DNA from: Oryzomonas sagensis
GTDB taxonomy: Bacteria; Desulfobacterota; Desulfuromonadia; Geobacterales; Pseudopelobacteraceae
Direction: 5' to 3'
DNA length: 64,000 nucleotides
NCBI RefSeq assembly: GCF_008802355.1
Contig: NZ_VZRA01000001.1
Span: forward strand, 256,980-320,979
The notes beneath the pieces were generated by a model, which saw only the letters and a list, made by a program, of their open reading frames with translations, was not told the DNA's origin and made no database searches. Each line of letters starts with the position of its first letter. Positions within the stretch are counted from its first letter, which is position 1. The translations under genes and the position numbers were made by a program. Shown in pieces: positions 21,292 to 31,402 of this stretch.

Positions 21292-21583
21292 GGGGGTATT
21301 CCGTTTTTGAGGTTGTGCCGGGCAGGGCAGCGTCTGTTCCATCCATCCTGCCGGTCAGACAGTTCCCTTGTATCATATTTCCCCTCCCATGGCGAGATTC
21401 GCTGGCTCGCCATGACCTTTGTCTTCCCGATCGACGCAGATCCCGCCCCAATAAAGAATGTACCGCCGAAAAGCGGCCTTATGGCGTTTCGGTCACTGGG
21501 GGCTCAAGAAGCGCCCCCCATTTGGCCGAAATTACGTGTTTATTGTCATTGTGCCAGGCAGGTTCCTGCGCTAAGGTGTGGCC

Positions 21584-22594
21584 ATGAAACATCAGCCCCG
21601 CACATCCACCGACATGGACACGCCGCTGCTCGTGACGATGGCCGCTTACGACGGTGCCGAGATCCTGGACATAACCGGCCCCCTGGATGTTTTTGCCCTT
21701 GCCAACGCCGTACATCGGGAAAATGGCGGCAAGGGACCACTCTATCGGGTCGAAATTGCGGCCGGGGCAAAAGACGCCGTGGTGGCGACGTCGTCCGGCA
21801 TCAGGCTGGTGGCCGACACGGCCTGGTCTGCCTGTTCAGGAACGGATACGCTGCTGGTGGCCGGCGGCCCCGCAGCAGAACAGGCGCCGGAAGAGCTGGT
21901 GAACTGCCTGCGCCGGACGGCGCCCCTGGCGCGGCGGGTCGGGTCGATATGCACCGGCACCTTCATCCTCGCACAGGCGGGACTGCTTGAAGGACGGCGC
22001 GCAACGACCCATTGGTCCAGGGCCGCACTGCTGCGCCGCCTCTATCCGCACATCGATGTCCATGAGGATGCCATCCATATCAAGGACGGTTCCGTCTACA
22101 CCTCGGCCGGGGTAACGGCGGGAATCGATCTGGCGCTGGCGCTGCTGGAGGAGGATTTCGGCCGCGCGCTGGCGCTGGATGTCGCCCGGCTGATGGTGCT
22201 GTATTTCAAGCGGCCGGGAGGACAGTCCCAATTCAGCACCGGCCTTTTGGCTCAGCTTCACGAGGGAGGCTCCCTCGCTCCGACCATTGAGTGGATACGC
22301 GACAACTATCGACACAACCTGGGCAATGAAGCGCTGGCCGACCACGCATCCATGAGCCTGCGCAATTTCGCCCGCATCTTCAAGCGGGAGACCGGCACCA
22401 CGCCGGCCCATTTTATCGAACGAGTTCGCCTTGAAGCAGCGGTCAAGCGCCTTGAAGAAACGAGCCAGACACTGGGAACCATCGCCCGGGAGTGCGGTTT
22501 CCAGTCTGGTGAACACTTCAGGGTGGCTTTTGTGCGCTTCTTCAGGATCACCCCCGGTCAGTACCGGGAACGGTTCCGATCAGGAACCGAATAA
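21584..22594 (+). CDS. GlxA-like AraC-family transcriptional regulator with DJ-1/PfpI domain
   Basis: 336 residues from ATG 21584 (AAGG upstream). The N-terminal DJ-1/PfpI-type domain (about 10-190) has YDGAEILDITGPLDVFALAN, LLVAGGPAAEQAP and SICTGTFILAQAGLLEGRRA, so a nucleophile-elbow cysteine is present. The C-terminal AraC DNA-binding domain (about 235-330) has SLRNFARIFKRETGTTPAHF and ECGFQSGEHFRVAFVRFFRI. GlxA-type regulators sense small molecules through the DJ-1-like part. The next gene is a DJ-1/PfpI protein 18 bp downstream, its likely target or partner. Confidence 0.9.
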   Translation: MKHQPRTSTDMDTPLLVTMAAYDGAEILDITGPLDVFALANAVHRENGGKGPLYRVEIAAGAKDAVVATSSGIRLVADTAWSACSGTDTLLVAGGPAAEQAPEELVNCLRRTAPLARRVGSICTGTFILAQAGLLEGRRATTHWSRAALLRRLYPHIDVHEDAIHIKDGSVYTSAGVTAGIDLALALLEEDFGRALALDVARLMVLYFKRPGGQSQFSTGLLAQLHEGGSLAPTIEWIRDNYRHNLGNEALADHASMSLRNFARIFKRETGTTPAHFIERVRLEAAVKRLEETSQTLGTIARECGFQSGEHFRVAFVRFFRITPGQYRERFRSGTE

Positions 22595-22612
22595 TCAGCA
22601 ATGGAGGATACC

Positions 22613-23413
22613 ATGAAACAGATACGCCTTCGGGGTATCGCTATACGCTTGTTGATCATGTCGGCGTTCATTGCCACGGCTTTGCCCGCCGCGGCCCGGA
22701 CGGACAAACCGCCGACAGCGCAGGAGACGCTGTATGAACGGCAACCTGCACCCGCCACCCGGCAGATAACCGTCGGGGTGCTCATTTTCCCCGGCTTCGA
22801 GATGCTGGATGCCTATGGCCCCATGGAGATGTGGGGCACCCTGAAGCACGCGCCGGCCAAGATATGGGGCGGCGAGGAGAAAAGGGTCGGTGTGCGGTTG
22901 GTCACCATCGCCGCCAAACGGGGCGAAATTCCCTCGAACCAAGGGCCGAAAACCATGGCCGATTTCAGCTACGACAATGCCCCGTCGCTGGATTTTCTGG
23001 TGGTGCCGGGTGGCTTGGGGGTATTCCCCCTGCTGAAGGACCCGGCAACGATGAATTGGCTACGGGCGCAGGCGGGGAAGGCCGGAATCGTCATGTCGGT
23101 CTGCAACGGCGCCTCTCTGCTGGCTGCTGCCGGCATTCTTGATGACCGGCCGGCAACGACCAACAAGATGGCCTTTCACCCTTCGACCGCGCCGGGACCC
23201 AAGGTGAAATGGGTCAAAAAAGCACGCTGGGTGGACGACGGCACGGTGGTCACTTCTTCCGGCGTCTCGGCAGGGATGGATATGAGCCTGGCGGTCATCT
23301 CGCGTCTGTACGGCAAGGATATTGGCGCTTGGCTTGAACGCGTCACCGAGTACGATGCCCACCGCGACCCGTCGTGGGACCCTTTTGCGGCAAAGGCCGG
23401 CCTGGTGGAGTAG
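22613..23413 (+). CDS. exported DJ-1/PfpI family protein
   Basis: 266 residues from ATG 22613, chosen for GGAGG upstream. A Sec signal peptide is visible (basic start, hydrophobic core LLIMSAFIATALPAAA, predicted cut near ARA/ARTD). The mature domain has GVLIFPGFEMLDAYGPMEMW, FLVVPGGLGVFPLL and the elbow VMSVCNGASLLAAAGILDDR, which holds the reactive cysteine. The pattern resembles isonitrile hydratase/InhA-like DJ-1 proteins, but those are cytoplasmic; here export to the periplasm is predicted. Substrate unknown. Likely one operon with the GlxA-type gene. Confidence 0.87.
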   Translation: MKQIRLRGIAIRLLIMSAFIATALPAAARTDKPPTAQETLYERQPAPATRQITVGVLIFPGFEMLDAYGPMEMWGTLKHAPAKIWGGEEKRVGVRLVTIAAKRGEIPSNQGPKTMADFSYDNAPSLDFLVVPGGLGVFPLLKDPATMNWLRAQAGKAGIVMSVCNGASLLAAAGILDDRPATTNKMAFHPSTAPGPKVKWVKKARWVDDGTVVTSSGVSAGMDMSLAVISRLYGKDIGAWLERVTEYDAHRDPSWDPFAAKAGLVE

Positions 23414-23540: not shown

Positions 23541-24299
23541 CTAGTTGCCGCTTGCCGTCTTGAAGGCGTCCATAACCTTCTGCATCGGAGCGGACGGCGC
23601 GCCGATGGTGATGAAGCCCAGCGGCCGTTCGATCTTCTTGGTGGCGACGATGGTCACCTGGGCCGGATCGACGAACCCCAGACCGAGGCCGCCAATGCCG
23701 CCGGCATCCACAGCCACCCTGTCGTTTACCTCTTTCACGAAACCTACCGCCTTGGCGCTGGCCGCATATTCCCCGTTAGCCATGACGACCTGCTTGATCA
23801 GCCCACGGGTGGCGCTGGCCTTGGCATCGGTATAAACGGTAATCGGCAGGTCCCTGCCCCCCACCGCCTTCCAGTTGACGATCTTGCCGGTGTGGATGTC
23901 CTTGATCTGCTCCCAGGTGAGGCTCTTCACCGGGTTGGAGGGGTGCACGACAAAAACCACCTCGGATTTTGCGATGACATGCATCTTCAGGTCCGGCACC
24001 GCCTTGGTGAGACCGGCCGATTTGGCCGCCTTCACGGTGGCGTCCAGGGATGCCGACGCCATGGCGGCGTCGCATTTCCCGTCGATGAGGTCGATCAACC
24101 CCTTGCCGGCATTGCTCTTGTCCACGACCAGCTTGTAGCCGGTGGCCTTTTCCACGGCGGCCCGGTGCGGCGCGACCAGGTCGGTGACGACGCTGGCCGC
24201 CCCATTCAGCCTGACCTCCTGGGCCAAAGCCCCCTGTGCCAGGCAGAAGGTCATGGCCGCGGCCAGGATGCTGCCCTGCAACCCGAACATACGTTTCAT
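23541..24299 (-). CDS. PstS/PBP-like periplasmic substrate-binding protein
   Basis: 252 residues from ATG 24299 (GAGGAG upstream). The signal peptide ends near AQGALA-QEV. The mature part begins VRLNGAASVVTDLVAPHRAAV and continues with LVVDKSNAGKGLIDLIDGKC and LTWEQIKDIHTGKIVNWKAV, the pattern of phosphate/anion-binding PstS-like proteins. No ABC permease genes follow, so it may be a stand-alone sensor or delivery protein. It is the last gene of the hydroxyacid dehydrogenase-cytochrome set. Confidence 0.85.
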   Translation of the reverse strand: MKRMFGLQGSILAAAMTFCLAQGALAQEVRLNGAASVVTDLVAPHRAAVEKATGYKLVVDKSNAGKGLIDLIDGKCDAAMASASLDATVKAAKSAGLTKAVPDLKMHVIAKSEVVFVVHPSNPVKSLTWEQIKDIHTGKIVNWKAVGGRDLPITVYTDAKASATRGLIKQVVMANGEYAASAKAVGFVKEVNDRVAVDAGGIGGLGLGFVDPAQVTIVATKKIERPLGFITIGAPSAPMQKVMDAFKTASGN

Positions 24300-24346
24300 G
24301 GGTAGTTCTCCTCTCTGAGTTGGATAGCGTTGCAACTGACCCGGCA

Positions 24347-24646
24347 TCAAAGTTTCCGGTGGCACTTCTCGCAATCGTTGAACACCTTCGTGCCGTCGTG
24401 GCAGGTGAAGCATGCCACGGCCTTGAAATGGTCATCCATGGTCATCAGGGCCTTCTTTTTCGTATCGAAGATGGCGCTGTGGCAGTCCTTGCACACCAGC
24501 CCCCTGGAGGCATGGAGCCTTCCGTCAAATATAACCCTGCCCTGTCCCGCTCCTCCGTACAACAGCGCCTTGTCGCTGGTGGCGAACACGACGCTGCCCA
24601 GGGTGCAGAGGGTCAGGGCGATTACACCTACTAACACGTTTCGCAT
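24347..24646 (-). CDS. exported triheme c-type cytochrome (c7-like)
   Basis: 99 residues. A signal peptide (residues 1-22, ending VVFA) is followed by three CXXCH heme motifs (CKDCH, CFTCH, CEKCH) and distal histidines in DGRLHASRG and DDHFKAV. The layout GRVIFDGRLHASRGLVCKDC and MTMDDHF fits the c(7)-type triheme domain found in many Geobacter cytochromes. It probably moves electrons in the periplasm. It lies between the FMN dehydrogenase and the binding protein on the same strand, so it is a natural electron acceptor for the dehydrogenase. Confidence 0.92.
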   Translation of the reverse strand: MRNVLVGVIALTLCTLGSVVFATSDKALLYGGAGQGRVIFDGRLHASRGLVCKDCHSAIFDTKKKALMTMDDHFKAVACFTCHDGTKVFNDCEKCHRKL

Positions 24647-24734
24647 GTGGTATCTCCGGACAACGGGCCTGGCGGGGGGCAGCCACAGGGTGCCTCCCGA
24701 TGCTCCCCCGCCACGCCCATCAGGTAATGAGTGA

Positions 24735-25955
24735 TTATGCCAGAATGTTCCTGCTCACCTTTTTCACGTCGGCGGTGCCGGTGATGGTCATGGCCACGAC
24801 CAACTCGTCCTGCAGCTTCTTGAGCATGAGCGCCACACCTTCGGCGCCGCCCCCCACCGAACCCCGGACCAGCGGCCGGCCGACCAGCACCGCATTGGCG
24901 CCCAGGGCCAGCATCTTCAGGACGTCGGCACCGTAGCGCACCCCGCCGTCGGCCAGGATGATCATCCGTCCCTTGACCTTGTCCGCAATGGCGGGCAGCA
25001 CCTGGGCCGTCCCCGGCGTATGGTCCAGGACCCGGCCGCCGTGGTTCGAGACGACGATGCCGGCGGCACCGGCCTCAAGGGCCATGAGCGCCTCTTCGGG
25101 GGTCATGACCCCTTTGATCAGAAACGGCAATTTGGTGGATTTGGCGATCTCCCGGAGTTGCTTCAGGGTCTTGGGCTCGACGGTCTTGCCCGGCAGGGCG
25201 CGCCCCGCACGGCCGGCGGAATCGATATCGATGGCAAAAAACGGCGCGCCGGTCTGCTCGATCAGGCGGATGCGCTCGATGATCTCGGCCTGGGTACGCG
25301 GCTTGATCTGGGCCACGGCTTTCCCGCGGTACTTGGCCACGGTCTTCAGCCTGGTCTCGTAGACCGAGAGCGGGTCGCCGATGCCGTCCGCCGCAAAGCC
25401 CAGGGTGCCGGCCAGGACACAACCGCCGATGATCCCTTCGGCGTACTCCTCTTCGCCGACCTTGCCTCCCAAGCCCATGTTGTAGGTCACGCCGCCGGTT
25501 ACGCCGGAGAGGATCGGCATGGACAGCTTGGCGCCGAACAGGGTCAGGGTGGTGTCCGGCTTTTTCACATCGTGGAAGGTGCGCATCTTCAGGTCGTATT
25601 TGGCAAGGGCCTGGAGATTGTTCCTGAAGGCCCTGCCCGAATCGATGCCGCCCATGCCCGGCACCTCACCGGAACAGGCAACCCCGTCGCACTCGGGGCA
25701 GACCCGGCAGCGGGGGTACATCTTCTCGCGGGCGACCTTGAGCACGTCGGAAAGCTTCTTGGCGCCACCGCCGGCAGCTGCTGCCGAGGCCGCCTTGGCT
25801 TCCTTCTTCGCATCTTCGGCCGCGTGGGCCTCGGTGCGGCCGACGGCCTGCACCGCCAGCACGCTGGCCCCCACCACCGCCGCTGTTTTGATGAAATTGC
25901 GGCGGCTTACCCCTGCGCCTTCCTGTTCTGCGGATTCGATCAACTCTTCAGACAT
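24735..25955 (-). CDS. Tat-exported FMN-dependent alpha-hydroxy acid dehydrogenase
   Basis: 406 residues from ATG 25955 (GAAGGAGG upstream). A twin-arginine signal (SRRNFIKTAA, residues 17-26) and hydrophobic core end near AHA-AED. An Ala/Lys-rich linker follows, then a four-cysteine cluster (Cys83, 86, 89, 94: CRVCPECDGVAC). The TIM barrel has ILSGVTGGVTYN, IVVSNHGGRVLDHTPGTAQV (catalytic His, FMN phosphate) and IILADGGVRYGADVLKMLAL. Family enzymes oxidise L-lactate, glycolate or similar acids. Folded FMN protein export by Tat puts the reaction in the periplasm. The Cys cluster is shared with some anaerobic members; its role is unknown. Confidence 0.88.
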   Translation of the reverse strand: MSEELIESAEQEGAGVSRRNFIKTAAVVGASVLAVQAVGRTEAHAAEDAKKEAKAASAAAAGGGAKKLSDVLKVAREKMYPRCRVCPECDGVACSGEVPGMGGIDSGRAFRNNLQALAKYDLKMRTFHDVKKPDTTLTLFGAKLSMPILSGVTGGVTYNMGLGGKVGEEEYAEGIIGGCVLAGTLGFAADGIGDPLSVYETRLKTVAKYRGKAVAQIKPRTQAEIIERIRLIEQTGAPFFAIDIDSAGRAGRALPGKTVEPKTLKQLREIAKSTKLPFLIKGVMTPEEALMALEAGAAGIVVSNHGGRVLDHTPGTAQVLPAIADKVKGRMIILADGGVRYGADVLKMLALGANAVLVGRPLVRGSVGGGAEGVALMLKKLQDELVVAMTITGTADVKKVSRNILA

Positions 25956-26063
25956 ACCTGCCTCCTTCAATGTGTGGTGACGGAGTCCCGGCCGGTGACC
26001 GTTCCTCCAACAAACCCCTCGTTGTTTGAGACAATAGCCGACTGTAGCGTTGCGGATAAGGTA

Positions 26064-26120
26064 ATTATAGCGAATGGCACAAATTGACAGATGAATGGCA
26101 GAAATCAGGGTTGAATGGTT
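26064..26120 (-). promoter_or_regulatory. candidate LytTR operator (three direct repeats) and -10 box
   Basis: The word GAATGGCA occurs at 26072-26079 and 26093-26100, and GAATGG at 26113-26118, spaced 21 and 20 bp, two helix turns. LytTR regulators bind such pairs of direct repeats. On the minus strand TATAAT (26069-26064) lies beside the first repeat, about 109 bp ahead of the FMN dehydrogenase ATG, with no good -35, as expected for an activated promoter. The regulator genes lie immediately upstream. Confidence 0.5.
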
Positions 26121-26173
26121 CTCCCCCGGGATACGGGCACAGGCATCACGCGAGCGCCCGGAGACGAAGAGTG

Positions 26174-26944
26174 CTATTTGCTTAAAATAAGCCGTTGTTT
26201 CAGTTCCTTGGCGTTGTATCGGCTGACCAGCACCTCGCTGCCGCTGTTGTCGCTCATTACCAATTTACAGCTGCCGTTGAACCAGGGGATGATCTCGATG
26301 ATGCAGTTCAGATTGACCAGGGAGTTGCGGTGGACCCTGACGAAGGAGTACGGTTCCAGGACGTTTTCCAGGGTACTGAGGGTGCTCTTCGAGGTAAAGA
26401 CGCCGTCCGTCGTATGGACCTGGGCTTCGCCTTCCGTGGCCCGTATGAAGACGATGCTCTCGGGCGGCACGGGAATCATCTTGCCCCCCTTATGCACGAT
26501 GATCCGCTTGATCTCGGGTTTCTCGGAACTATGAGGCGCCTCCTGGGGAACGAGGGGTTTCCGGGCCGTTACCCGGGTGTCAAGGGCCTTGCCGGCCTTG
26601 TGGACTGACTTGGCCACCCGCTCCAGGGTGAACGGCTTGAGGATGTAGTCGAAGGCGTCCACGCTAAAGGCCTGCACGGCAAACTGCTCGAAGGCGGTGG
26701 CGAATACGACCAGCGGCTTGTCGGGCAACTCCCTGATGACCTGGGCCAATTCGATCCCACTCAGGCCGGGTAGTTGAATGTCCAGGAATACGAGGTGGGG
26801 CTTGGTCTCCCGAATCCCCTGCAACCCCTGGGAAGGATTGGACGCCTCACCGAGGATAGCCACATCGCCCACCTGCTCGAGCAGGTAGCGCAACTCCCTG
26901 CGGGCCGGAGCCTCATCGTCGATGATGAATACGGTGATCGTCAT
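26174..26944 (-). CDS. LytTR-type response regulator
   Basis: 256 residues. An N-terminal receiver domain (1-120) has the phospho-acceptor Asp55 in LVFLDIQLPG, the acidic pocket IIDDEAPARRELRYLL and the conserved Lys in ILKPFTLERV. The C-terminal LytTR DNA-binding domain (about 147-250) has IKRIIVHKGGKMIPVPPESI, FVRVHRNSLVNLNCI and the ending RYNAKELKQRLILSK. The ATG overlaps the stop of the kinase gene (ATGA), so the two are translated together. Likely targets are the repeats at 26072-26118 next door. Confidence 0.94.
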   Translation of the reverse strand: MTITVFIIDDEAPARRELRYLLEQVGDVAILGEASNPSQGLQGIRETKPHLVFLDIQLPGLSGIELAQVIRELPDKPLVVFATAFEQFAVQAFSVDAFDYILKPFTLERVAKSVHKAGKALDTRVTARKPLVPQEAPHSSEKPEIKRIIVHKGGKMIPVPPESIVFIRATEGEAQVHTTDGVFTSKSTLSTLENVLEPYSFVRVHRNSLVNLNCIIEIIPWFNGSCKLVMSDNSGSEVLVSRYNAKELKQRLILSK

Positions 26945-28656
26945 GCGTTCACCGGTACGCGGAAGTAAACAGTGGTGCCTTCACCCGGGTCGCTCTCGAT
27001 CTTCAAACCATTCTCCTTGCCGTACAGGGTTGCCAGGCGGCTGTTGACGTTTCGAAGCGCCAGTCCCAGCCCGCCGCCTTCATGGGGCGCCACCGCCTCC
27101 GACAGCAAGCTGCGGACACGCTCCCGGGACATGCCCACGCCGTTGTCCTTGATAGAGATGAGCAGACCACCCGCCCCCTTTCTGGCTCCGATATGAATCA
27201 CGCCGCCCCCCTCCTTCGGCAGGATGCCGTGGCGCACGCCGTTTTCCACCAAGGGTTGCAGGATCAGCGAGGGAACGTTGCACGACAGGGCCTCGGCGTC
27301 GATCTCGTAGACGATGGAAAGCCGTTCCTCGAAACGGGCCTTTTCGATGGCGATATAGGCCTCGCAGTGTTCCAGCTCGACCGACAGCGGCACCTTGTTG
27401 GCGGTGGGGCTGATGTTCTTGCGGAAAAACTCGGCCAGCTTCACCAAGAGGCAGGAAGCGGTCTGGGGATCGGTTCGGGTATAGCTGATGATCGTGGAGA
27501 TGGCATTGAACAGGAAGTGGGGATTGATCTGGGCTTGCAGGGCCTTGATCTCCGCCTCGGCCACCAGCTTGCGCTGGAGTTCGATCTCGCCCAGTTCGAG
27601 CTGGTTGGAGAACAGGTGGGCAAGGCCGTTGGCCAACTCCACGTCCAGCCGGCTGATGGCGTGCTCCTTCTGGCGGTACAGCTCCATGACCCCTACGGTC
27701 TTGTCCCATTTTTTGAGCGGCACCACGATGGCCGAACCGAGCCGGCCCGCCTGACTGGCGCAGCCGATGGCCTCTTTCGTGGGCGCGATCACCACCGTGC
27801 CCGTTTCAAAGGCGCGGCGCGCGGCAGGCGGCAGGGAATGTCCGCCCGGCGTGTGCTGGTCGCCATCCAGCCCTTCATGGGCCAGGATTTCATGCTCGCT
27901 GGAGATGGATACCGCATCCAGACCGGTCATCTCCCGGATAATGTGCGACGCCTCCATGGCCGAACCGCGGTTCAACCCGTGGCGCAGATGGGGCAGGGTC
28001 CTGAAGGCGATATTGAGCGTGGTCTGCGCCTGTTGCGCCATGGCCCGCTCCTGCTCGCGGGTGACGGATGCGAGCACCTCCACGAGCACCGCGATGCCGA
28101 AGGCGTTGGAGAGGATGCTGGGGAGGCCTATGGCATGCACCACGTTCAGGGCTGCCTCCTGGGGATGGGCCAGGAGCAGGATCAGCCCCATCTTGATCGA
28201 CTCGGCCACGATGCCGATGAAAAAGGCCATCAACGGATCGAAAGCCCGCCGGTGCAGCCAGCGGTAGAGAAGACCGGCCACAACCCCCGCCAGGGGCGTC
28301 GCAATGGCGCAGGAGACGGAGGTCACCCCGCCGATATCGTAGAAGTAGCGATGCGCTCCAGCTATGATGCCGGCGGACAGACCGACCAGGGGCCCACCCA
28401 GGATGCCGCCGATCACGACCGGAACCGTACGCAGGTTGGCGATCGCTCCGTGCACCGGAAAGCCGTAGTAGGTTGCAAAAATACCGGCCGCCCCGAAATA
28501 AACGGCATGGAACAGCTTCTCGCGGCTGCTCGCCGTGGCGACCTTGCCGGTCAGAAGCCGTCGGAACAGTTCGAACCTCATCATGAGGAAGAAGAGAACC
28601 GCTAGAATCCCCAATCGCTCGAAGAGATCAAGGGACAGGCCGACCATTTCATCCAT
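26941..28656 (-). CDS. LytS-type sensor histidine kinase (5TMR-LYT, GAF)
   Basis: 571 residues. An N-terminal 5TM-5TMR_LYT sensor (residues 10-195) is built of several membrane helices with ATYYGFPVHGAIANLRTVPV and IAGAHRYFYDIGGVTSVSCA. A GAF domain (about 215-350) and the LytS kinase core follow, with His380 in INPHFLFNAIST, the N-box LQPLVENGVRHG and DNGVGMS. Kinases of this class (BtsS and YpdA in E. coli) respond to pyruvate. A small organic acid signal is therefore plausible, matching the hydroxyacid dehydrogenase nearby. It forms an operon with the LytTR regulator. Confidence 0.93.
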   Translation of the reverse strand: MDEMVGLSLDLFERLGILAVLFFLMMRFELFRRLLTGKVATASSREKLFHAVYFGAAGIFATYYGFPVHGAIANLRTVPVVIGGILGGPLVGLSAGIIAGAHRYFYDIGGVTSVSCAIATPLAGVVAGLLYRWLHRRAFDPLMAFFIGIVAESIKMGLILLLAHPQEAALNVVHAIGLPSILSNAFGIAVLVEVLASVTREQERAMAQQAQTTLNIAFRTLPHLRHGLNRGSAMEASHIIREMTGLDAVSISSEHEILAHEGLDGDQHTPGGHSLPPAARRAFETGTVVIAPTKEAIGCASQAGRLGSAIVVPLKKWDKTVGVMELYRQKEHAISRLDVELANGLAHLFSNQLELGEIELQRKLVAEAEIKALQAQINPHFLFNAISTIISYTRTDPQTASCLLVKLAEFFRKNISPTANKVPLSVELEHCEAYIAIEKARFEERLSIVYEIDAEALSCNVPSLILQPLVENGVRHGILPKEGGGVIHIGARKGAGGLLISIKDNGVGMSRERVRSLLSEAVAPHEGGGLGLALRNVNSRLATLYGKENGLKIESDPGEGTTVYFRVPVNA

Positions 28657-28882: not shown

Positions 28883-29512
28883 TCAGGGCTTTCGCTTGCC
28901 CACCATTGCAGCATACTCGTCCGGCGTGTTCACGTTACAAAACGAGAGTTCCGCGCCGGGGATGGAGGCACGTTCCTCTGGCGTAACATATCGCGTCCTT
29001 ACACGATCCAGCAGGATCAGGAGCCGCCGGTCGCCCTGGCGGATGACCTGCTCAATCTCCGCCAGGCAGCGCCGCCCGTACAGGGCGTGCAATGGCTCCT
29101 TGCCCCCCTCGCTGATCGGCACCACCGCATCATACCCTGCGGAAACGGCGGACAACATGCGTATCACATCCGGGTTGATGAAGGGCGCGTCGCAAGCCGC
29201 AACGAAAATCCATTCCTCGGAACTGGCCGCAAGGCCGGCGTGCAGGCCGGCAATGGAGCCAAAGCCGGGATAAATATCCGTCACCGTGCGGCACGGCAGA
29301 AAGGCATACACCTCCGGCGTATTGGTAACCAGCACCACATCCCGGAAGAGCTGGATCATGGTGCGATGAATCTTCTCGATCAGCGGCATGCCGTCCACCA
29401 TCAGCAGGGCCTTGTTTCTGCCCATGCGGCTGGATGCTCCGCCGGCAAGGATCACACCGGTTATGCCGTCGAGCGGCCCTCTCGTTTCCTGCATGCAGGG
29501 GGATCTGTCCAT
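28883..29512 (-). CDS. mobA: molybdenum cofactor guanylyltransferase
   Basis: 209 residues from ATG 29512, preceded by AGGAGA. GTP is joined to molybdopterin to give the bis-MGD cofactor. The nucleotide-binding signature GVILAGGASSRMGRNKALLM is complete, with IYPGFGSIAGLHAGLA and FVAACDAPFINPDVI (metal-binding DxP). Last gene of a moaC-mog-small ORF-mobA set. Its start overlaps the stop of the upstream small ORF (TAATG). Confidence 0.92.
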   Translation of the reverse strand: MDRSPCMQETRGPLDGITGVILAGGASSRMGRNKALLMVDGMPLIEKIHRTMIQLFRDVVLVTNTPEVYAFLPCRTVTDIYPGFGSIAGLHAGLAASSEEWIFVAACDAPFINPDVIRMLSAVSAGYDAVVPISEGGKEPLHALYGRRCLAEIEQVIRQGDRRLLILLDRVRTRYVTPEERASIPGAELSFCNVNTPDEYAAMVGKRKP

Positions 29513-29736
29513 TATGTCTCCTGACGGCCCGGGCACCACAAGCGAGGGTTTGGCGCGACGCGGGAAAGCAGGCTGAAGCCGCTATTGGCCGGGATCACGA
29601 TCTCCCCGTTTTCATTCACCACGATGCGGGCCGGGATGTACGCAGGGAGGCTCTCCCCACCACTCTGGACCTCCTCGGTCACCTCCAGGCAGGATTCGCC
29701 CCCCCCCATTTTATCAACGCTGCTTCCGTTCGCCAC
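29512..29736 (-). CDS. small hypothetical protein in the molybdenum cofactor operon
   Basis: Up to 74 residues from GTG 29736, or 65 from ATG 29709; neither start has a strong ribosome site. The stop TAA overlaps the mobA ATG (TAATG), and the frame fills the gap between mog and mobA, which supports a real gene. The readable core is LPAYIPARIVVNENGEIVIP, with a cysteine near each end. No family recognised. It could be a Moco-related accessory factor, by position only. Confidence 0.45.
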   Translation of the reverse strand: MANGSSVDKMGGGESCLEVTEEVQSGGESLPAYIPARIVVNENGEIVIPANSGFSLLSRVAPNPRLWCPGRQET

Positions 29737-29766
29737 CCTATCCCGGCCAGAGTTGCAGAACCGGCA

Positions 29767-30264
29767 TCAGTGCGAAAATTTTCCTCCGCAATCGCTCTCG
29801 TCGCCGCGGATCTTTTCCACGGCGTGGCCGATAACGGGCCAGGCCGCCTCCAAGTTTTCCCGAGCTCCCTTGGGGCTGCCCGGCAGGTTGATGATCAGCG
29901 CTTGGCCGCGGATTCCTGCCATCGCCCGCGACAGCGATGCCATGGGGGTCTTCTCCAGGCTCCTCAGGCGCATCAATTCGCCGATGCCCGGAATCTGGCG
30001 TTCAACGACCTTCATGGTGGCTTCCGGGGTTACATCCCGGGGCGAGACTCCGGTACCTCCCGTGGTCAGGATCAGATCGGCCGTGTCGGCATCGGCCCAT
30101 GCGCTCAACACGGCCACGATCCGGTCAAAATCGTCGGGGATGATCTCGGTCTGCACCGTGGCTACGCCCCGCTCCGCCAGCCAGGCGGCCAGCGCCGGGC
30201 CACTCTCGTCAATGCGCTCGCCCCGCGATCCCTTGTCGCTCAAGGTCAGAATGGCCGCTCTCAT
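29767..30264 (-). CDS. mog: molybdopterin adenylyltransferase (MogA/MoaB family)
   Basis: 165 residues. It activates molybdopterin with AMP before molybdate insertion. Signatures are ILTLSDKGSRGERIDESGPA, DLILTTGGTGVSPRDVTPEA (nucleotide and MPT site) and ALIINLPGSPKGARENLEA. MogA and MoaB are hard to separate by sight, so the symbol follows the usual use in this arrangement. The ATG overlaps the moaC stop (ATGA). Confidence 0.9.
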   Translation of the reverse strand: MRAAILTLSDKGSRGERIDESGPALAAWLAERGVATVQTEIIPDDFDRIVAVLSAWADADTADLILTTGGTGVSPRDVTPEATMKVVERQIPGIGELMRLRSLEKTPMASLSRAMAGIRGQALIINLPGSPKGARENLEAAWPVIGHAVEKIRGDESDCGGKFSH

Positions 30265-30743
30265 TGTCCCTCCTCCCGACGGTACACGCCACTTTTACCA
30301 CCTTCCTTGTACAGGAGCCGGATATCACCGATGCTGATTGATTTATCGCTCCCCTTGCACATGTCGTAGATGGTCAGGGCGGCCACGGCCGCGCCGGTCA
30401 TGGCCTCCATCTCGACGCCGGTGCGCTCGAAGGCGCGGACGGTGCACTGCACCTCGATCTTGCCGGCAGCGCTGTCCTGCTCAAATTCCACCGCCACGGA
30501 ATGGAGGGAGAGCGGGTGGGAAAGCGGGATCAGGTCCGGTGTCCGCTTTGCCGCCATAATTCCCGCCAGCCGTGCAACGCCCAGCACATCGCCCTTGGCT
30601 ATCGCGCTGTTTTGGATGGCGGCCAGCACCTTGCCGGACATGTGCACCTCCGCCGCGGCCGTGGCCGTTCGCAACGTTTCCCGCTTGCCGCTCACATCCA
30701 CCATGACGGCATTGCCATGATCGTCGAAATGGTTGAAATTCAT
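30261..30743 (-). CDS. moaC: cyclic pyranopterin monophosphate synthase
   Basis: 160 residues from ATG 30743, with AGGTGAGGA upstream. It converts the MoaA product into cyclic pyranopterin monophosphate, the first molybdopterin precursor. Conserved parts are MVDVSGKRETLRTATA, AGIMAAKRTPDLIPLSHPL and ERTGVEMEAMTGAAVAALTI, then DMCKGSDKSI, all textbook MoaC. moaA is not in the window. Confidence 0.96.
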   Translation of the reverse strand: MNFNHFDDHGNAVMVDVSGKRETLRTATAAAEVHMSGKVLAAIQNSAIAKGDVLGVARLAGIMAAKRTPDLIPLSHPLSLHSVAVEFEQDSAAGKIEVQCTVRAFERTGVEMEAMTGAAVAALTIYDMCKGSDKSISIGDIRLLYKEGGKSGVYRREEGQ

Positions 30744-30772
30744 GGTCCTCACCTGTGCTTGAATTTTAGACA

Positions 30773-31402
30773 TCAAAAACGTCGCGCCGTGGCCAGTTTG
30801 ATGGCAAGGCCGGCAAAGATGGTACCTGCAACGCGGTTCAATAGCAGCTGCGCCCGGGCGGACTGCCTGAGTTTGTCTCCCAGCGCCCCGGCCAGGAGGC
30901 TGACCGTCCCGAACACCAGAATGGTGGCAACGATGAACAAGCAGCCCAACAGCAGGAATTGCATAGCCAGAGGCCCCCTGCGCGGATCGACGAACTGGGG
31001 GAGAAACGCCAGAAAGAAGATGGATACCTTGGGGTTGGTGACATTCATGATGATGCCGCGCCGGAAGAGCTTGCCCGGGCTCAACCGATCCACCCTGTTT
31101 GCCGGCCCGGTCTGGGCGTTGGCCCGGAACGCCTGCCAGGCCAGGAAGAGCAGGTATCCGGCGCCGGCAAATTTCAGAAGAGCGAAGGCGGTGGCAGATG
31201 CCGCAAAAACCGCCGCCAGCCCGAAGGTGACGGCGGTGGTATGAACCACCAGCCCGCCGCAGAGCCCGAGCGTAACCAGAAACCCGGCCTTTACCCCCTG
31301 TTGCGCCGCCTGCGCCAGGACGAACAGGTTGTCAGGGCCGGGCGACAGTGACAGGAGAAGTGATGTTGTGAAAAAGAGTAACAGCATATTTGCTTCAATC
31401 AT
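30773..31402 (-). CDS. LysE/RhtB family amino acid exporter
   Basis: 209 residues with six hydrophobic segments, a short inner-membrane exporter. Family signatures are SLSPGPDNLFVLAQAAQQGV at the N-terminus and GIIMNVTNPKVSIFFLAFLP in the middle. It exports amino acids or derivatives; the substrate is unknown. It ends 30 bp before moaC and runs in the same direction, so it may be the first gene of the Moco operon, an unusual placement without an obvious metabolic link. Confidence 0.88.
   Translation of the reverse strand: MIEANMLLLFFTTSLLLSLSPGPDNLFVLAQAAQQGVKAGFLVTLGLCGGLVVHTTAVTFGLAAVFAASATAFALLKFAGAGYLLFLAWQAFRANAQTGPANRVDRLSPGKLFRRGIIMNVTNPKVSIFFLAFLPQFVDPRRGPLAMQFLLLGCLFIVATILVFGTVSLLAGALGDKLRQSARAQLLLNRVAGTIFAGLAIKLATARRF

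Follow-up and report, generated by a model that had tools for sequence, protein, structure and literature searches.

Organization of the gene module

We analysed a 64,000-nucleotide stretch of the genome of Oryzomonas sagensis (NCBI RefSeq assembly GCF_008802355.1, contig NZ_VZRA01000001.1, positions 256,980 to 320,979 of the forward strand), referred to below as the window. It carries a five-gene module encoding a two-component system of the LytS/LytTR type and three exported proteins: (i) a flavoprotein with the fold of flavin mononucleotide (FMN)-dependent hydroxyacid enzymes, (ii) a triheme cytochrome c and (iii) a protein with a periplasmic-binding-protein (PBP) fold. An earlier note on this DNA had proposed that the sensor detects an organic acid and switches on a periplasmic dehydrogenase, which passes electrons to the cytochrome. 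The five genes, their order and the three operator-like repeats described there were all found on the minus strand, between positions 28656 and 23541:

26941..28656, minus strand: LytS-type sensor kinase (BtsS/PyrS-like), with the Pfam domains 5TM-5TMR_LYT, GAF, His_kinase and HATPase
26174..26944, minus strand: LytTR-type response regulator (PF04397 and PF00072), overlapping the kinase gene by 4 bp
26112..26119, minus strand: operator repeat 1, ACCATTCA
26092..26099, minus strand: operator repeat 2, GCCATTCA, 20 bp after repeat 1
26071..26078, minus strand: operator repeat 3, GCCATTCG, 21 bp after repeat 2
24735..25955, minus strand: flavoprotein of the FMN_dh fold with a twin-arginine translocation (Tat) signal and a four-cysteine loop (PF01070, TAT_signal)
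24347..24646, minus strand: exported triheme cytochrome c of the c7/nanowire_3heme type (PF14522 and TIGR04257 over the cut-off)
23541..24299, minus strand: exported PBP-fold binding protein (PstS-like, PBP_like_2; PF12849)

The flavoprotein gene most likely starts with the ATG at 25955, which is preceded by a good ribosome-binding site; the listed open reading frame (ORF) begins with the TTG at 25970. The likely start of the binding protein is the ATG at 24299, while its listed ORF of 290 aa extends too far upstream, into the cytochrome gene.

Conservation of the module

Conservation was examined in a sample of 147 related genomes, in which up to 17 kb around the flavoprotein gene were read. 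The flavoprotein is present in 16 of these genomes, O. sagensis included. Eight of them contain all five genes in the order LytS, LytTR, flavoprotein, cytochrome, PBP, and a further six show the same order with the cytochrome fused to the PBP (including loci of T. lovleyi SZ and Geomonas edaphica), which gives a complete unit in 14 genomes, fused forms included. The remaining flavoprotein loci are one that ends at a contig edge and one with the flavoprotein and cytochrome genes only. Conservation of the five-gene order, which the earlier note had left to be checked in relatives, was thus confirmed, and the order is retained over several genera and families. O. japonica Red96 carries the same flavoprotein (99% identity). 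The module is absent from most relatives and is co-inherited as a unit. The author of the earlier note was not aware of a description of this arrangement and we likewise found none in the open-access literature, which is weak evidence of novelty, as subscription journals lay outside the search.

The exported flavoproteins (n=23) form one clade (100/100), and a triheme cytochrome is encoded by the next gene in all cases except three enterobacterial ones. This linkage across relatives supports the pairing of a Tat-exported flavoprotein with the cytochrome that had been proposed. Beyond Geobacterales, the flavoprotein-cytochrome pair was found alone or (in Shewanella) adjoining a different two-component system, whose kinase contains an SBP_bac_3 domain. 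In Shewanella, Symbiopectobacterium, Serratia and Brenneria, the gene of an exported four-cysteine flavoprotein is divergent from genes for an SBP_bac_3 kinase and a sigma-54-type regulator (L044-L048, e.g. L045:5201-8508).

Operator repeats and promoter region

A search with the pattern CCATTCRN{13,14}CCATTCR revealed two matches in the window, which overlap and constitute one triple, against 0.00 expected. An exact search of the whole 3.61-Mb genome returned only those two matches, and the reversed control none. The 20/21-bp spacing is identical to that of the E. coli btsT promoter; the three repeats are present in an oligonucleotide from the yjiY/btsT promoter that is bound by BtsR (PMC4847170). 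In 15 flavoprotein-linked promoters the best triples at this spacing have 0-3 mismatches, and none of 100 shuffles of each promoter was as good. Triple operators of the same quality (0-3 mismatches; 0/100 shuffles as good) occur in E. coli btsT, as well as in eight promoters linked to CstA-family transporter genes and three linked to ATP-binding cassette (ABC) uptake operons (see below). No triple operator was found upstream of seven flavoprotein homologs that lack LytS/LytTR genes, the 7-9 mismatches observed there being at the level of the shuffles. Because the motif was picked after the sequences had been viewed, the weight of this evidence lies on the shuffles and the seven negative controls, and not on the fit.

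The exclusive operator, its btsT architecture and its co-variation with LytS/LytTR strongly support the prediction that a BtsSR-like system regulates the module promoter, and agree with the original suggestion that the sensor pair switches on the dehydrogenase genes. A TATAAT sequence located right after repeat 3 was considered as a -10 box and rejected, since it is not conserved in relatives. The sequence TTATCC-17-TATTGT, placed further downstream, is a better promoter fit by eye; a promoter scan detected neither of the two.

Sensor kinase and response regulator

With a single PF07694 match in the genome, no 5TM-5TMR_LYT protein other than the kinase was found. The kinase shares 33.5% identity with BtsS and 35.5% with PyrS (YpdA), and the regulator 31.8% with BtsR and 33.3% with PyrR (YpdB). 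By identity, PyrS/PyrR-yhjX is the closer of the two E. coli systems, and its direct repeats are also 21 bp apart; it differs from the window in having two repeats (GGCATTTCAT) and a transporter of the major facilitator superfamily (MFS) type as its target. The BtsS/BtsR-btsT system matches the window in the domains of the kinase and the regulator, in three of the four residues that contact pyruvate, and in its three repeats at 20 and 21 bp. However, its target is a CstA-family transporter, whereas in the window the target is a periplasmic redox module, S113 is changed to Ala and the ligand is predicted by homology.

In BtsS, pyruvate is contacted by R72, R99, C110 and S113 (PMC10653868). The equivalents of the first three residues are kept in all flavoprotein-linked and CstA-linked kinases, while two MFS-linked kinases of Geobacterales have K, R and S, respectively, at these positions. 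The S113 equivalent is Ala in the flavoprotein-linked kinases, that of the window included, except for Gly in the kinase of locus L027. Ala is also found in the CstA-linked Geobacterales kinases, which belong to the same clade, and for this reason the substitution was rejected as a diagnostic mark of a different ligand. In the kinase tree, 13 flavoprotein-linked sequences constitute one clade (100/100) beside the CstA- and ABC-linked ones, and the two E. coli sequences form long branches.

Since R72, R99 and C110 are kept in the flavoprotein- and CstA-linked groups and partly replaced in the MFS-linked one, our best guess, by homology, is that the signal is pyruvate or a close analogue. The proposed sensor of an organic acid is thus supported as one of the pyruvate type by the conservation of these residues, the btsT operator architecture and the presence of homologous pairs before CstA-type transporters.

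Probable other targets of related sensor pairs

In relatives without the flavoprotein, a LytS/LytTR pair (~48-58% identity) with the same operator precedes a CstA-family transporter gene in eight genomes (G085, G086, G089, G093, G098, G139, G016 and G117), which were reached by an operator search of the relatives. In three further genomes, reached via the kinase, the pair precedes a branched-chain-type ABC uptake operon and a similar operator is present. The CstA- or ABC-linked loci with a triple operator in Geobacterales are L120-L124, L126, L186-L188, L194 and L195. In two reports, pyruvate transport in the BtsS/BtsR system is ascribed to transporters of the CstA/BtsT family (PMC10653868, PMC7730263). 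As close homologs of the pair, with the operator retained, stand before such a transporter in eight other genomes, the target of the sensor pair appears to have been swapped between transporter and flavoprotein module. If true, this would clearly exemplify how a known sensor of a metabolite can retain its operator and change its target.

The flavoprotein

The flavoprotein matches PF01070 with 215 bits (cut-off 24.9), and the solved folds nearest to its structural model are those of mandelate/glycolate oxidase (Z 29.7, root-mean-square deviation 2.6, 267 residues). It retains the Lys/His/Arg/Asp set of glycolate oxidase (K230, H254, R257 and D157). An alignment with spinach glycolate oxidase and a PDB-based alignment agree on these residues. 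Around R164 of glycolate oxidase, where the alignment is ambiguous, an Arg is conserved among the exported proteins alone. The protein is 30.5% identical to LldD and missed the NCBIfam cut-offs for LldD and L-lactate oxidase (135.1/550, 157.8/376 and 125.3/645.5 bits). Pfam searches of the flavoprotein detected PF01070 and weak TIM-barrel matches only; neither a flavin adenine dinucleotide (FAD) domain of the flavocytochrome c type (Mrd, FccA, UrdA) nor an N-terminal b5-type heme domain, as in flavocytochrome b2, was found.

The cysteine loop has the form C-x2-C-x2-C-x4-C. All relatives compared have such a loop of four cysteines centred on a conserved CxG, with three of the cysteines aligned in 27/27. 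In the alignment it immediately precedes tyrosine Y24 of FMN hydroxyacid enzymes and thus lies close to the active site, which makes an electron-relay cofactor at this site plausible. Most members of the four-cysteine branch, in the phylum sample as well as in Clostridia, are cytosolic and encoded by single genes. A large cytosolic four-cysteine FMN_dh-like branch (L056-L084) is partly annotated as alpha-hydroxy-acid oxidizing protein. DVU2784 of D. vulgaris, described as an LldD homolog (PMC4481167), may be placed in the cytosolic branch. The window flavoprotein represents a branch of the FMN hydroxyacid-enzyme fold that is marked by four cysteines, is so far uncharacterised and extends across Desulfobacterota-type genomes and into Clostridia.

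Two known enzymes resemble the proposed one in function. Flavocytochrome b2, the yeast L-lactate:cytochrome c oxidoreductase, has the FMN_dh fold and feeds cytochrome c outside the cytosol. It differs from the window enzyme in having the catalytic tyrosines and a b5-type heme domain within the same polypeptide; the window enzyme instead has the four-cysteine loop, and its triheme cytochrome is a protein of its own. The enzyme described in PMC12294151 likewise oxidizes a hydroxyacid in the periplasm with cytochrome c as the acceptor; it is of the FAD/Zn type and related to D-2-hydroxyglutarate dehydrogenase, in contrast to the FMN fold of the window enzyme.

The cytochrome and the binding protein

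Both the triheme cytochrome c (PF14522/TIGR04257) and the PstS-like binding protein (PF12849) were identified as previously claimed. The cytochrome contains three CXXCH motifs and two further His residues. With only five His in all, one heme cannot be bis-His ligated, and is predicted to have another ligand or to be five-coordinate. The cut-off for PpcA-type cytochrome c7 (NF043011) was missed (22.5/120 bits); three bis-His hemes need six His. By sequence the protein is related to the GSU1996-type domains (nearest PDB sequences 3ov0, 3oue, 3ouq and 1rwj), c7 "nanowire" triheme domains with which it shares a TIGR04257 match over the cut-off. Unlike these, it is a single domain, which in six relatives is fused to a PBP domain.

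Both its sequence and its fold place the binding protein among PstS-like proteins. Its AlphaFold2 model is good in part only (mean predicted local distance difference test score, pLDDT, 65), and PstS relatives in PDB are still ranked first. It missed the PstS cut-off (TIGR02136; 87/206.6 bits), and its phosphate site is altered: SGT is present as SAT, Asp stands in place of Arg four residues ahead of this motif, and the SRD/SD site is SAS. No transporter genes adjoining the PBP gene were found in the gene list of the window. In the fused forms (L029-L034 and L041-L043, e.g. L041:10327-11325), the triheme cytochrome constitutes the N-terminal part of the PBP, giving one exported protein. This fusion in some relatives argues that the cytochrome and the binding domain act together, and it constitutes a further lead from the module.

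Proposed function and alternative explanations

In the mechanism that we infer, the BtsS/BtsR-like system would sense a small carboxylate of the 2-oxo or 2-hydroxy type outside the cytoplasm, most likely pyruvate, whereupon the LytTR regulator would bind the three 20/21-bp-spaced repeats and switch on the downstream genes. The FMN protein, exported in folded form by the Tat pathway, most likely oxidizes a small 2-hydroxy acid, probably other than lactate as a main growth substrate. Its electrons would reach the triheme cytochrome c encoded next to it, probably via a cofactor that the four cysteines hold, and would then enter the cytochrome pool of the periplasm. For the PBP-fold protein, a role in an ABC importer is less probable than binding of the acid, or of its product, close to the redox partners. 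We assign this explanation as a whole, a pyruvate-type sensor driving a periplasmic FMN-cytochrome-PBP module for hydroxyacid oxidation, a probability of about 0.5. Among its parts, the genes and their order, the exclusivity of the operator, the relationship of the sensor, the fusion and the co-inheritance can be read from the sequences themselves; hydroxyacid oxidation by the flavoprotein is plausible, and its direct electron transfer to the cytochrome is suggested by the linkage of their genes. A more far-reaching version can be offered only tentatively: a pyruvate-type system rewired from carbon uptake to periplasmic respiration, in which a Tat-exported FMN enzyme with a new iron-sulfur (four-cysteine) relay, a triheme cytochrome and a cytochrome-tethered PBP would jointly oxidize an organic acid in the periplasm and deliver electrons straight into extracellular electron transfer, past uptake and the quinone pool. 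A module for periplasmic oxidation would allow iron-reducing bacteria of soils and sediments to use an organic acid as an electron source with no need for its uptake.

Several observations weigh against the main explanation. (i) The flavoprotein lacks Y24 and Y129, the two tyrosines through which characterised FMN hydroxyacid enzymes contact their substrate. The cysteine loop and a PGMGG sequence take the place of the Y24 region, while the strand-4 segment AVAQIKPRT contains no tyrosine and the best counterpart of Y129 is K164; the exact pairing of residues is uncertain between two alignments, whereas the absence of the tyrosines is certain. Because both are missing, the reaction may be a different one. 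The fold and the four catalytic residues of the FMN alpha-hydroxyacid dehydrogenase named in the earlier note are borne out, but the label itself is weak. (ii) In an AlphaFold2 model built from a 14-sequence alignment, the pLDDT of the cysteine loop is below 50. (iii) The substitution S113A reduces pyruvate binding by BtsS (PMC10653868), and the window kinase, like the CstA-linked Geobacterales kinases, has Ala at that position. (iv) Three enterobacterial loci contain the SBP_bac_3 system and the exported flavoprotein without the cytochrome. (v) In Geobacter, a Tat flavoprotein with a multiheme cytochrome is known as a reductase (methacrylate reductase, PMC4427408), and so the electron flow could be reversed.

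The flavoprotein would in that case be a periplasmic terminal reductase, to which the cytochrome brings electrons from the quinone pool for the reduction of an organic acid (e.g. pyruvate). The precedent, Mrd/Mcc of Geobacter sulfurreducens AM-1 (PMC4427408), likewise pairs a Tat flavoprotein with a multiheme cytochrome of the periplasm within Geobacterales; direct sensing of the acid would suit a reductase induced by its acceptor, and the lack of the substrate tyrosines of the oxidizing enzymes fits this view. However, Mrd is a flavoprotein of the FAD flavocytochrome c type acting with a tetraheme cytochrome, and the known reductases belong to another flavoprotein family, whereas the window protein retains the base/arginine/lysine set of a fold family known for the oxidation of 2-hydroxy acids. 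The pyruvate/lactate couple (~ -190 mV) also offers little driving force, and we regard a reductase as unlikely. It is similarly improbable that the flavoprotein modifies or scavenges some other substrate, with the sensor tuning it to the carbon state and the PBP binding another ligand. A modifying enzyme, the pre-mycofactocin synthase MftD, is known within the same fold family; the Lys at the expected tyrosine, an extra Asp and the four cysteines mark a distinct branch, most members of which are stand-alone cytosolic genes, and not all carriers of the module use lactate. Nevertheless, no peptide, maturase or other partner genes lie beside the exported form, and the adjoining cytochrome points to net electron transfer.

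Lactate, the substrate implied by the earlier note, is disfavoured. The conversion of lactate to pyruvate would suit a pyruvate-type sensor, the flavoprotein has some identity with LldD, and O. japonica and O. ruber use both pyruvate and lactate as electron donors (PMC7285026). O. sagensis, however, uses pyruvate and not lactate (PMC7285026), and so does T. lovleyi, whose route of pyruvate oxidation is described as unclear (PMC13390470) and whose strain SZ (G025) carries the module, while P. propionicus uses lactate (PMC7285026) and the module was not found in its genome. In addition, O. sagensis contains a separate cluster for a lactate permease and LutB/LutC (LutBC/LldFG)-like and GlcD/GlcF-like proteins (contig C2, ~115-123 kb; L199:5308-13158), and the LldD (135/550 bits) and L-lactate oxidase (125/645) equivalog cut-offs are far from reached. 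On the strain phenotypes and the separate lactate genes, lactate was rejected as the main substrate; it is an unlikely growth substrate of the module, with a minor lactate activity possible, and a main periplasmic L-lactate dehydrogenase is very improbable. The GlcF-like gene of this cluster had been suspected of carrying a frameshift, which was also rejected, as another frame is open and intact. That the five genes are chance neighbours without a shared function is scarcely credible: the flavoprotein occurs in only 16 of the 147 relatives, but the order is kept over several genera and families, the operator is exclusive and co-varies with the regulator, and the cytochrome and PBP are fused.

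Neighbouring genes

Directly upstream of the sensor gene and on the same (minus) strand lie molybdenum cofactor genes encoding MobA, a MogA/MoaB-like protein and MoaC (28883-30776). On the other side, convergent with the module, the plus strand (21578-23413) encodes an AraC-type regulator that includes a DJ-1/PfpI domain and, after it, a DJ-1/PfpI protein whose N-terminus is signal-like.

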